Shown in pieces: positions 20,089 to 23,303 of a stretch of 64,000 nt of DNA. Positions within the stretch are counted from its first letter, which is position 1, and each line of letters begins with the position of its first letter. The notes beneath the pieces were generated by a model. That model ran no database searches. It saw nothing but the letters and a program-made list of their open reading frames with translations, and was not told the DNA's origin. A program made the position numbers and the translations under genes. The stretch covers positions 1-64,000 of the forward strand of contig BQJD01000019.1 of the NCBI GenBank assembly GCA_021604525.1, in the 5' to 3' direction. This DNA comes from a marine bacterium B5-7 (lineage in GTDB: Bacteria; Pseudomonadota; Gammaproteobacteria; Arenicellales; CAJQKF01).

Positions 20089-20955
20089 CTATTGACTGCG
20101 AAACTGTTCTGCAATGACCAGACCAACTAACAACCAGAACCCGCCTACCAGGAAGCCGGCCGCCACATCTGATGCGTAGTGAACGCTCAGCAACAATCGA
20201 CTGAAACCGATCAGGCCGATTAATGCAATGGCCCAGTAGGTGACCTCGAATCTTTGCCGCAGGTTGTTCATGTCTCGTGATATCGCATAGGCAATAAAGC
20301 CATAAACCGCAATCGCGCTGGTTGCGTGGCCACTCGGGAACGATGGAGTGAGTGCGGTAACCCCGGTTAGAAACTCCGGTCGCTGTCGATCGAATGCAAA
20401 TTTGCCGACATAGGTAGTTAGCTGCGAGCCGAGGATGGTCACCATCAGCGGAAGAATCATGTAGCCTTTTTTAGATACGTGGAAAAACCCGCTGCTAACA
20501 AAAACCACTGCGAACAGCGATGGAAAAGAACCGAGTTCCGTGATCCAGGTGAAAAAAGCGACTGAGTCAGGCGTTCGGAAACGTTGTAGATAATTGTTTA
20601 TCGACTGATCCATGCTGAGTAATTCATCCATCTCCATGAGTTCTTCAATCAGTCCGCCGAGCAGCATCACAATATATAGCGCTGCAATAATAAGCAGCGT
20701 TAGTGGTAGGCCATTGAAATAGCGCGTATCGATCCTTGAGCCCATAAATCGCATAGTGCGTGGTATGCGTGCGGAAAGAGTTGCATGAAGCGCATTGGTG
20801 CGCGACCACACCGACGACCCGGGTAGTTGAACCTTAACCCGTTCAAGTCTTGAGGATAAACTGCGCACTATTTGCCAACAGATGAACCTGATTACCAGGA
20901 ACACGACGATCGCAATCAGGTACGGAATAACTTCATCGAGCACGATATTTTCCAT
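20089..20955 (-). CDS. PAP2-family membrane phosphatase
   Basis: 288 aa membrane-bound acid phosphatase. All three PAP2 motifs are present: KFAFDRQRP (KxxxxxxRP, about residue 187), PSFPSGHA (PSGH, about 205), and SRLLLSVHYASDVAAGF (SRxxxxxHxxxD, about 255), so it should be catalytic. The family dephosphorylates undecaprenyl pyrophosphate, phosphatidate or phosphatidylglycerophosphate. The first 80 residues form an extra N-terminal membrane segment and basic linker outside the catalytic domain. It is divergent from the following membrane protein gene. Confidence 0.92.
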   Translation of the reverse strand: MENIVLDEVIPYLIAIVVFLVIRFICWQIVRSLSSRLERVKVQLPGSSVWSRTNALHATLSARIPRTMRFMGSRIDTRYFNGLPLTLLIIAALYIVMLLGGLIEELMEMDELLSMDQSINNYLQRFRTPDSVAFFTWITELGSFPSLFAVVFVSSGFFHVSKKGYMILPLMVTILGSQLTTYVGKFAFDRQRPEFLTGVTALTPSFPSGHATSAIAVYGFIAYAISRDMNNLRQRFEVTYWAIALIGLIGFSRLLLSVHYASDVAAGFLVGGFWLLVGLVIAEQFRSQ

Positions 20956-21059: not shown

Positions 21060-21794
21060 ATGAAAAGACCGGCACGCACTTTTACAATTTTTGTATTTGT
21101 TATCTGTGCAATGGCATGCGGTTTCGGCATTGCCGCATGGACTGGTGCCCGTTATATGGTACCGCCCGGTAGCGGTCTTGCCGGCCCGCTCATGGTACTC
21201 GGCTATGGCATTGTCGGCGCGCTGATCGGTGGCGGCTGCGGATTTATTCTCGGCATCAAACTGCCACCGCGGACGTTTCGATTACTGGCATTTCCGGTCA
21301 TTATCGCCGGCTTTATACTGATTGCAGTCATCAGTGTAAAATTCCTGAAATCGCAAGCCGAGCAGAATGCCTATCTCGATGAGCAGCTCGCCTCGTTGCC
21401 GCCTTTCAAGCTTGATCTGAAATATTCTGGCCAGGGCGATCTGGCACCGTTTCAATCGTTCGCCTACGATTCATCCAGTGGACGATTCGTAACCACCACC
21501 AACGAGGGTGATAGCTGCCAGGGTCAGATTGCCGGAACCAGCAAAGCCAAAGTGACCATGCTGGCAGCACTTCGGCATGTCGAAATTCGTCTCGCCAATG
21601 ATCCACAGTTATGCACTAACAAGACAGCAGAGCCGTTGGCTCGTTTAACGTTCACAATTACAGAACACCTGCCGCCTGCAACCACCGGCGATGTCAGGCT
21701 GACATCCGAATGCCTCACGGATGCGGTTGAAATCGAGGATGCGATATCGTCTATCGCGGCGGTGCATGAACAGTTCCGTAAGGATTGCAAATAG
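21060..21794 (+). CDS. Membrane protein of unknown function
   Basis: 244 aa. Three hydrophobic segments lie in the first 95 residues (about 7-28, 40-62 with a Gly-rich GYGIVGALIGGGCGFILGI, and 76-95). They are followed by a hydrophilic domain of about 140 residues, probably on the periplasmic side, with at least three Cys (GDSCQGQ, DPQLCTNK, LTSECLTD) and a C-terminal DCK. No family was recognised. GAGAG precedes the ATG. It is convergent with the voltage-sensor-like gene, 53 bp apart. Confidence 0.75.
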   Translation: MKRPARTFTIFVFVICAMACGFGIAAWTGARYMVPPGSGLAGPLMVLGYGIVGALIGGGCGFILGIKLPPRTFRLLAFPVIIAGFILIAVISVKFLKSQAEQNAYLDEQLASLPPFKLDLKYSGQGDLAPFQSFAYDSSSGRFVTTTNEGDSCQGQIAGTSKAKVTMLAALRHVEIRLANDPQLCTNKTAEPLARLTFTITEHLPPATTGDVRLTSECLTDAVEIEDAISSIAAVHEQFRKDCK

Positions 21795-21847: not shown

Positions 21848-22789
21848 TCAACTATCTGTCGGCTCACGCTCATCGACACTGGCAAGGTTCACATTATCAG
21901 GTTCGCTCCTGGCTACAATTCGCTGACGCACCTCATCCATCTTGTCGCACAGGCGCTGCAATTCGTGCTCTTTCTCCGCGTGTATTTTTTTAAGTTTCTC
22001 AAGATGCTTTTCCGGGCTTCGGTGGATTACGCGCTCAATGGCGCTGATAGCCACAAATGCCTGCACGATGCGCATCAACAGGCTGCGCAACCGATAGACC
22101 CGCAACATCTTGCCTGCCCTGGCAACACGAAAAGCCCGCACCACCTGCACACTGCGCAGGAAGGCGATCAATGGCAGCAGTATGATCAACAGGTTCAGCC
22201 AGTTTTTCTTCGCGTAGGCAATCTTGTCATCTGCTACGGAGATCATCAAAACGTATTCGAAGGTGAATGCAAACCAGATGAAGGCCGCACTGATATCAAG
22301 CAAGTTGCCAAGCCAGGGTAAGTCCGCCACCTTACCCTTAAGCAAATATTCAATTCCGAGAATCGGCAAAATCATCAAGGCGATGACAAGCATCGGCAGG
22401 GTAAAGGCCTTGTCCAGTTCTTGAAATAGTTCGCGCCCCTTGATACGCCAGCCGAGGCGCGGCAACCAGATAGTGCGGCTGTCGTTAAATGTCGAGTAAC
22501 CAAGGCGCAAGGGCGGCAGGACACTCACCAGGAAAAACCGTTTGAGGTTACCTCGAAGATGTCTATTGAGGAGCAGACCTGCTAATGCTTCGACAATAAA
22601 GGGTAGCCATGCGATCACCAGAATTTCTAATGTAAAGTTCGCCTGTTCGCTGACAATGGTCGACGAATTCCACCATTGCACAATAACTGCAAGAGTCGCC
22701 AGAAAAACCACCGCGGCAACGAACATGATTCGCGGCTGTACAGTGGCGGTGTTTTCGGTAATGACGTTGGGTTCGATAGAGGACGACAT
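21848..22789 (-). CDS. Pore-less voltage-sensor-like membrane protein with C-terminal coiled coil
   Basis: 313 aa with about six membrane segments: two near the N terminus (21-40 and 52-74), then 129-150, 165-186 and 197-213, and an S4-like helix at 215-242. In the S4 region R218, R221, R224, K227, R230 and R233 fall at exactly every third residue, the pattern of voltage-sensor helices. The preceding segment has the S2-like FTFEY with E178. The next has NWLNLL, where voltage sensors usually carry an Asp. No P-loop, TVGYG-like filter or S5-P-S6 follows. Instead residues 257-291 (EKHLEKLKKIHAEKEHELQR) look like a coiled coil. This layout recalls the proton channel Hv1. It could instead be a degenerate ion-transport-family protein. 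It lies 19 bp downstream of sixA, in the same operon. Confidence 0.8.
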   Translation of the reverse strand: MSSSIEPNVITENTATVQPRIMFVAAVVFLATLAVIVQWWNSSTIVSEQANFTLEILVIAWLPFIVEALAGLLLNRHLRGNLKRFFLVSVLPPLRLGYSTFNDSRTIWLPRLGWRIKGRELFQELDKAFTLPMLVIALMILPILGIEYLLKGKVADLPWLGNLLDISAAFIWFAFTFEYVLMISVADDKIAYAKKNWLNLLIILLPLIAFLRSVQVVRAFRVARAGKMLRVYRLRSLLMRIVQAFVAISAIERVIHRSPEKHLEKLKKIHAEKEHELQRLCDKMDEVRQRIVARSEPDNVNLASVDEREPTDS

Positions 22790-22808: not shown

Positions 22809-23303
22809 TTAGTGTGGCCGTATTAATTCGACCAGTTTGGCCTCTTCACCGATATCGAGACCGTCCGGACCGAGATCAATTGTGGCGATATTGGCTGTCG
22901 TCAGGAGTTTACCCTTCCTGGTACGCTCGATATCCGATCCGCACAAGTAGACCATCAATTCTTCGAGACCCGGATTGTGGCCCACAACCATCACGATATC
23001 GAGATCGTTAAATCGTCTCAGAACCTCGATTAGCTCGTCGCAGCTTGCGAGGTACAAGGATTCGTCGAATTCGAGACGGTCCAGTCGCCAGCCGGTTTTT
23101 AAAAACACCCGCTCCACGGTTTGCCTGGCCCGCAACGCTGGCGAACAAACCACACGGTCCGGTGGGGCTGCCATGTTTTTGAGCTCAAGGCCCATCTCGC
23201 CAGCAGCACGACGACCGCGCTTGTTCAAAACGCGATCGAAATCCCGTTCGGTACCACTATGCCAATCTGACTTGGCATGACGCATTATTATGAGTTGTTT
23301 CAC
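22809..23303 (-). CDS. sixA: SixA-like histidine phosphatase
   Basis: 164 aa of the histidine-phosphatase superfamily. The catalytic LIIMRHAKSDW (residues 4-14) has the RHA/S form typical of SixA, which removes phosphate from phosphohistidine on phosphotransfer domains. The second conserved His lies in VVGHNPGLEEL (about 113-123). The length is near the usual 155-165 aa. It is the first gene of a likely two-gene unit with the voltage-sensor-like gene. Confidence 0.9.
   Translation of the reverse strand: MKQLIIMRHAKSDWHSGTERDFDRVLNKRGRRAAGEMGLELKNMAAPPDRVVCSPALRARQTVERVFLKTGWRLDRLEFDESLYLASCDELIEVLRRFNDLDIVMVVGHNPGLEELMVYLCGSDIERTRKGKLLTTANIATIDLGPDGLDIGEEAKLVELIRPH

Follow-up and report, generated by a model that had tools for sequence, protein, structure and literature searches.

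Within the window, that is, the whole 64,000-nucleotide stretch of DNA analysed here, a minus-strand gene (21848..22789) encodes a pore-less voltage-sensor protein of 313 amino acids plus stop, as indicated by the ORF call and by homologues of 63-64% identity in two other genomes of the same genus. Its reading frame begins with an ATG at 22789 and is separated by 19 nt from an upstream sixA-like phosphohistidine phosphatase gene on the same strand (22809..23303; Pfam His_Phos_1, E 7.4e-12). On the other side lies a convergent plus-strand gene (21060-21794) encoding 244 amino acids, which has no Pfam match and is kept beside the sensor gene in the genus. A further minus-strand ORF (20089-20955) carries an SFPSGHATSA motif and resembles a PAP2-type membrane phosphatase.

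The N-terminal half of the sensor protein, whose features all lie on the minus strand, consists of a degenerate first sensor followed by a short hairpin. Transmembrane segments were located at residues 21-39 and 56-74, with KRFFLVSVLPPLRLG at 83-97. S1' (residues 17-42; 22664..22741) corresponds to an AlphaFold helix with a pLDDT of about 90 at 21-40 and pairs with S1 in the internal-repeat alignment. S2' (residues 47-74; 22568..22651), also an AlphaFold helix, contains W61-x-x-F64-x-x-E67 with the spacing of W172-x-x-F175-x-x-E178 in the second sensor, and residue 67 is E or D in all 24 members of the family alignment. A short S3'-like helix (residues 81-96; 22502..22549), delineated by AlphaFold, the repeat alignment and the 24-member alignment, ends in LPPLR, in which P92 and R95 are invariant. 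The IWLPRLGW hairpin (residues 106-116; 22442..22474), a family signature with W108 and P110 in 24/24 members, was modelled as two short strands in both AlphaFold predictions.

An earlier note on this DNA, made from the sequence alone, had regarded this half as a degenerate copy of the S1-S3 pattern, and profile comparison bears this out. Profile columns 15-125 matched columns 126-260 with a score of 30.5 (E 9e-5), compared with 19.2 for the best of 200 column shuffles and 11.4 for a reversed control; circular-shift controls were uninformative because some shifts keep the matching stretch intact. The match is in register, covering S1', S2' with its W-x-x-F-x-x-E, and S3' ending in LP. A BLASTP comparison with the bacterial channel P0004 shows the same S2'-S3' correspondence in a second, weak match (E 0.70). 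S4 is missing from the first copy, and R95, located after LPP, may be its sole remnant. Since S3' is short and has basic residues on both flanks, it is probably re-entrant or interfacial; a re-entrant S3' would place both sensors in the same orientation.

The second sensor is complete. S1 (residues 119-149; 22343..22435), defined by AlphaFold and the family alignment, contains P142 in 24/24 members and E147 in 22/24. S2 (residues 158-185; 22235..22318), an AlphaFold helix, bears the charge-transfer pair F175/E178, with the F-x-x-E spacing of Shaker F290/E293 (PMC6768053). This pair, a mark of the voltage-sensor superfamily, is invariant in 24/24 members and belongs to the FTFEY segment (175-179) previously recognised as S2-like. 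S3 (approximately 193-209; 22163..22213), assigned from the family and channel alignments, reads W197-L-N199...LLP206. Acidic countercharges in S3 are common in voltage sensors, although not strictly defining; the corresponding position 199 is acidic in 19/24 members (D in 18, E in one), while the window protein, whose clade has N here, and four further members carry N. S4, placed by homology at residues 211-235 (22085..22159) through a gap-free alignment to a pore-bearing channel, contains R212, Q215, R218, R221, R224, K227, R230 and R233, whereas AlphaFold places it, with low confidence, at about 228-255.

The six charges from R218 to R233 fall at exactly every third position, as originally described, and R212 and Q215 prolong the register. 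Among 20,000 shuffles of this protein, which keep its composition, only 21 contained a run of at least six basic residues with this spacing. In the 24-member alignment, a basic residue is found at position 212 in every member, at 227 in 22 and at 233 in 23, and the stretch 210-236 holds 6-10 basic residues throughout. The periodicity is kept in close homologues, with eight basic residues in this stretch in all three proteins of the genus, and becomes slightly weaker in the next relatives (R221Q). Many planctomycetes have G or S at 218 and Q at 224, and in Gemmataceae-type members acidic residues (D/E) and prolines interrupt the run.

The coiled coil had been thought to follow S4 directly, but this overlooked an intervening hydrophobic helix that resembles an S4-S5 linker (residues 236-255; 22025..22084). 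This helix is supported by hydropathy (Kyte-Doolittle peak 1.66), the family alignment and the channel alignment, and residue 253 is basic in 24/24 members. The C-terminal coiled coil itself (residues 259-295; 21905..22015) is predicted as an AlphaFold helix, with the same heptad register scoring best in 24/24 members. The Pfam matches of the protein include no phosphatase family, and the part after residue 257 is coiled coil. We are highly confident of the overall anatomy: an S1-S3 repeat that has degenerated, then a WLP hairpin, a full S1-S4 sensor, a linker-like helix and a coiled coil.

The sensor of this protein is homologous to that of bacterial pore-bearing channels. Residues 120-247 align with P0004 (locus L083), a 277-aa protein scoring above the Pfam cut-off for both Ion_trans and Ion_trans_2, at 37% identity over 128 aligned columns and without a gap through S3, S4 and the linker. 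All 24 family members align to P0004, nearly all of them across S1-S4 plus the linker or part thereof, and the local alignment of L018 extends about 15 residues further. When the family was compared by hhalign with profiles of pore-bearing channels, the probability was 99% and E ranged from 1e-17 to 1e-19, a match that is not fully independent because the channel relatives were themselves found by profile. Pfam Ion_trans (PF00520) scored 19.4 bits on the window protein, below the cut-off of 25 (E 6.5e-4), and covered residues 162-247 only. A profile search of PDB sequences returned mostly coiled coils. The only NCBIfam match, to the D-galactonate transporter TIGR00893, scored 19 bits where the cut-off is 395 and was taken as a chance transmembrane match.

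The channel homology ends before S5. No filter, S5 or S6 of the kind that characterises a 6TM cation channel was found, and the earlier description of a voltage-sensor-only protein without a pore is upheld. A stricter set of filter patterns matched neither the window protein nor any of 27 distinct family ORFs. Three planctomycete members were picked up by a looser pattern, probably by chance and outside any pore context. Bacterial 6TM Ion_trans channels such as P0004 and BH1501 share S1-S4 and the S4-S5 linker with the window protein, but also possess S5, S6 and a filter, which in P0004 reads TMGSEYWP. Conversely, P0004 begins too late to contain the S1'-S3' repeat. The P0004 gene (L083:1438-2271), which encodes the nearest sensor relative found, has a non-canonical filter, and similar filters in L019 (SLGSDFWP), L024 and L061 (both TMGSEYWP) delineate a bacterial channel group with an unusual filter.

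Structural models were generated with AlphaFold from nine sequences for the window protein (mean pLDDT 76.9, pTM 0.64) and for a second member from Pirellulaceae (mean pLDDT 73.7, pTM 0.66), and both displayed the expected helix order. In structure comparisons, sensor-bearing proteins ranked first for the window model (NavMs, Z 7.7, rmsd 3.0 over 115 residues) and for the Pirellulaceae model (Z 7.8, rmsd 3.1 over 111 residues), with unrelated helical proteins starting from Z of about 4.9 and 5.9, respectively. According to the caution attached to the comparison tool, Z values below 8 may be common; the fold therefore supports, but does not prove, the sensor assignment, which is carried by sequence homology. 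With Foldseek alone, no match reached E <0.001, but the top matches were to the sensor-bearing SLC9C1 exchanger, and NavMs was also among the matches. The proposed S1-S4 arrangement is recovered as a sensor-type fold in two models, but S4 is among the least confident regions of both (pLDDT 49-64 in the window model).

This leaves a second register for S4 to be considered, in which S3 would extend to about residue 222, the true S4 would span 228-255, and most of the charges would lie in an amphipathic S3-S4 connection. Both AlphaFold models place S4 there (in window numbering), hydropathy peaks at 199-217 and 237-255, the length between F210 and Y232 varies in the family alignment, and Gemmataceae-type members carry a proline and an acid in that stretch. 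However, the pLDDT there is 49-64, both models were built on the same nine sequences, and the channel matched at 37% identity without a gap has S5 as its next helix, which sets the window protein's S4 at about 211-235. We consider the shifted register a tentative reading, somewhat less probable than not, and one that would fit any function. Both placements, 211-235 and about 228-255, are retained, and the absence of a pore is the same under either.

Relatives of the protein are widely scattered among bacteria. A single-sequence scan of genome contigs detected none, whereas a three-row profile recovered full-length relatives of approximately 28-42% identity beyond the genus, in other Gammaproteobacteria, Pirellulaceae, Gemmataceae/Fimbriiglobus, a Rhodothermales MAG and a MAG labelled Bacteroidales. 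No fewer than 24 full-length members (from Gammaproteobacteria, Planctomycetota, Rhodothermales and others) have the same layout, all without a pore; this and the following counts are lower bounds, reflecting profile detection in sampled genomes. Among 246 genomes sampled from the phylum to which the Pirellulaceae seed belongs, at least 14 had a full-length match (seed counted), plus one weak partial match, and two further members were found elsewhere in the phylum of the window. The corresponding sample for the Rhodothermales seed yielded only the seed itself (1/198), and the plasmid collection searched gave no match. Across the 24-member alignment, P92, R95, W108, P110, P142, W172, F175, E178 and P206 are invariant. 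Two members (L009:5827-6975, TAG; L058:1471-2400, TAA) are each broken by a single in-frame stop, attributable to sequencing error or decay. A Gemmataceae-like member (L011:929-1900) lies on a contig labelled Bacteroidales, where mis-binning is possible.

The genomic setting offers no common partner. Pairing with SixA had been suggested, but the adjacency recurs in two other genomes of the same genus and nowhere else in the flanks examined, where neighbours vary by lineage; SixA was accordingly rejected as a partner outside the genus. As the whole local order (panB, sixA, the sensor gene, then the convergent 244-aa gene) is common to the genus, the adjacency is likely ordinary synteny. Neither a recurrent neighbour across distant lineages nor a conserved neighbouring pore gene was found in the flanks examined. 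In one planctomycete group, both genes flanking the sensor gene are oppositely oriented, so that it stands alone. As to pore subunits in the organism's own genome, three Ion_trans_2 matches were found, located on other contigs and unlinked to the sensor gene.

Among known systems, Hv1 likewise combines a sensor lacking a pore with a coiled coil, and both features are found here, the coil as a prediction. Hv1 requires an aspartate in the middle of S1 for proton selectivity and carries an RxWRxxR motif (PMC10377628, PMC4148356), and reviews report no prokaryotic Hv1 (PMC10377628, PMC6768053). The earlier note inferred an Hv1-like channel, but membership in Hv1 is not supported: neither a mid-S1 acid nor RxWRxxR occurs in any of the 24 members. 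Residues 129-146 contain no D or E in 24/24, and the sole acid close by, E147, lies towards the outer end. The window protein also differs from Hv1 in its extra N-terminal repeat and in having bacterial 6TM channels as the closest relatives found. Because the Hv1 residues are absent, proton conduction is an open possibility rather than a consequence of family membership. Vertebrate TMEM266 (HVRP1) has an S1-S4 sensor, no pore, a C-terminal coiled coil and no mid-S1 aspartate (PMC4148356, PMC6392501), and the same features are predicted in the window protein. TMEM266 dimerises through its coiled coil and reports voltage without proton current (PMC6392501, PMC4148356). TMEM266 differs in that it has just one sensor and its long tail is disordered. 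The bacterial protein, for its part, has an S4-less S1-S3 repeat and a WLP hairpin, and a hydrophobic linker helix precedes its coil. Most likely, the window protein is functionally nearer to TMEM266 than to Hv1, a likeness judged on features. Voltage-sensing phosphatases also join a pore-less sensor to a cytoplasmic part, but that part is a phosphatase domain, whereas the window protein has only a coiled coil.

With about an even chance of being correct, we propose that the protein is a dimeric voltage-responsive sensor in which S4 acts through the linker helix and the coiled coil. The coiled coil would form the dimer, and a change in membrane potential would shift S4 past F175/E178. This motion would be relayed by the linker helix to the coiled coil, altering its contact with a cytoplasmic or membrane partner, while the S4-less first repeat would probably serve as a fixed packing partner replacing the absent pore. 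Retention of sensor function is suggested by F175/E178 in 24/24 members, the acid at position 199 in 19/24 and the nearly constant basic residues of S4 at 212, 227 and 233. Against this stand the variation of S4 charges between lineages (G/S at 218, Q at 224, acids and prolines in Gemmataceae-type members), the window clade's N199, where S3 usually has an aspartate, and a solo, non-operonic setting outside the genus that would equally suit a self-contained channel. It is the mechanism, not the anatomy, that lowers our confidence.

The last point leads to the possibility that the sensor domain itself conducts, either as an Hv1-like proton channel or as a leak (omega, gating-pore) channel, with no separate pore. 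A protein with no pore whose gene is solo outside the genus may act alone, and many relatives have neutral G, S or Q at 218 and 224 within the S4 run; in NavAb, small residues replacing S4 arginines open gating-pore currents (PMC13095418). Yet the S1 core lacks an acid and RxWRxxR is missing in 24/24. Hv1 depends on its S1 aspartate to select protons, the sensor-only relative HVRP1/TMEM266 is non-conducting, and the charge at each third position from 218 to 233 of the window protein does not favour a leak. We consider conduction rather unlikely. Quite unlikely is its more specific form, a prokaryotic stand-alone family with a tandem sensor, the first copy S4-less, that would move protons or cations through the sensor by a route other than the Hv1 S1 aspartate. 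The variation in number and spacing of S4 charges, with D/E and P in Gemmataceae-type members, could instead reflect a vestigial, voltage-insensitive sensor serving another membrane protein as a structural or assembly factor; among the most constant charges are inner ones (233, 235, 240, 253) that are possibly structural. An invariant F175/E178 and the 6-10 basic residues at 210-236 in all members argue against such a loss, which we regard as unlikely. Finally, pore-bearing channels are the nearest sensor relatives, as would be expected of a truncated or decayed ordinary channel, but at least 24 full-length pore-less members in several groups with an invariant N-terminal signature, together with a frame intact in three genomes of the same genus, render decay extremely improbable.

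According to reviews, known prokaryotic voltage sensors are accompanied by a pore (PMC10377628), and stand-alone sensors have no reported counterpart in prokaryotes (PMC6768053). The open-licence papers searched contained no account of this pore-less family. The protein is, as judged from sequence, a known domain in an architecture unreported for bacteria, with a predicted function. Its members are small proteins, and the planctomycete relatives provide further ones for testing. The occurrence of such a pore-less family in several groups of bacteria bears directly on whether the voltage sensor evolved as an independent module, and would suggest that bacteria could use membrane potential as a signal without ion passage through a pore.
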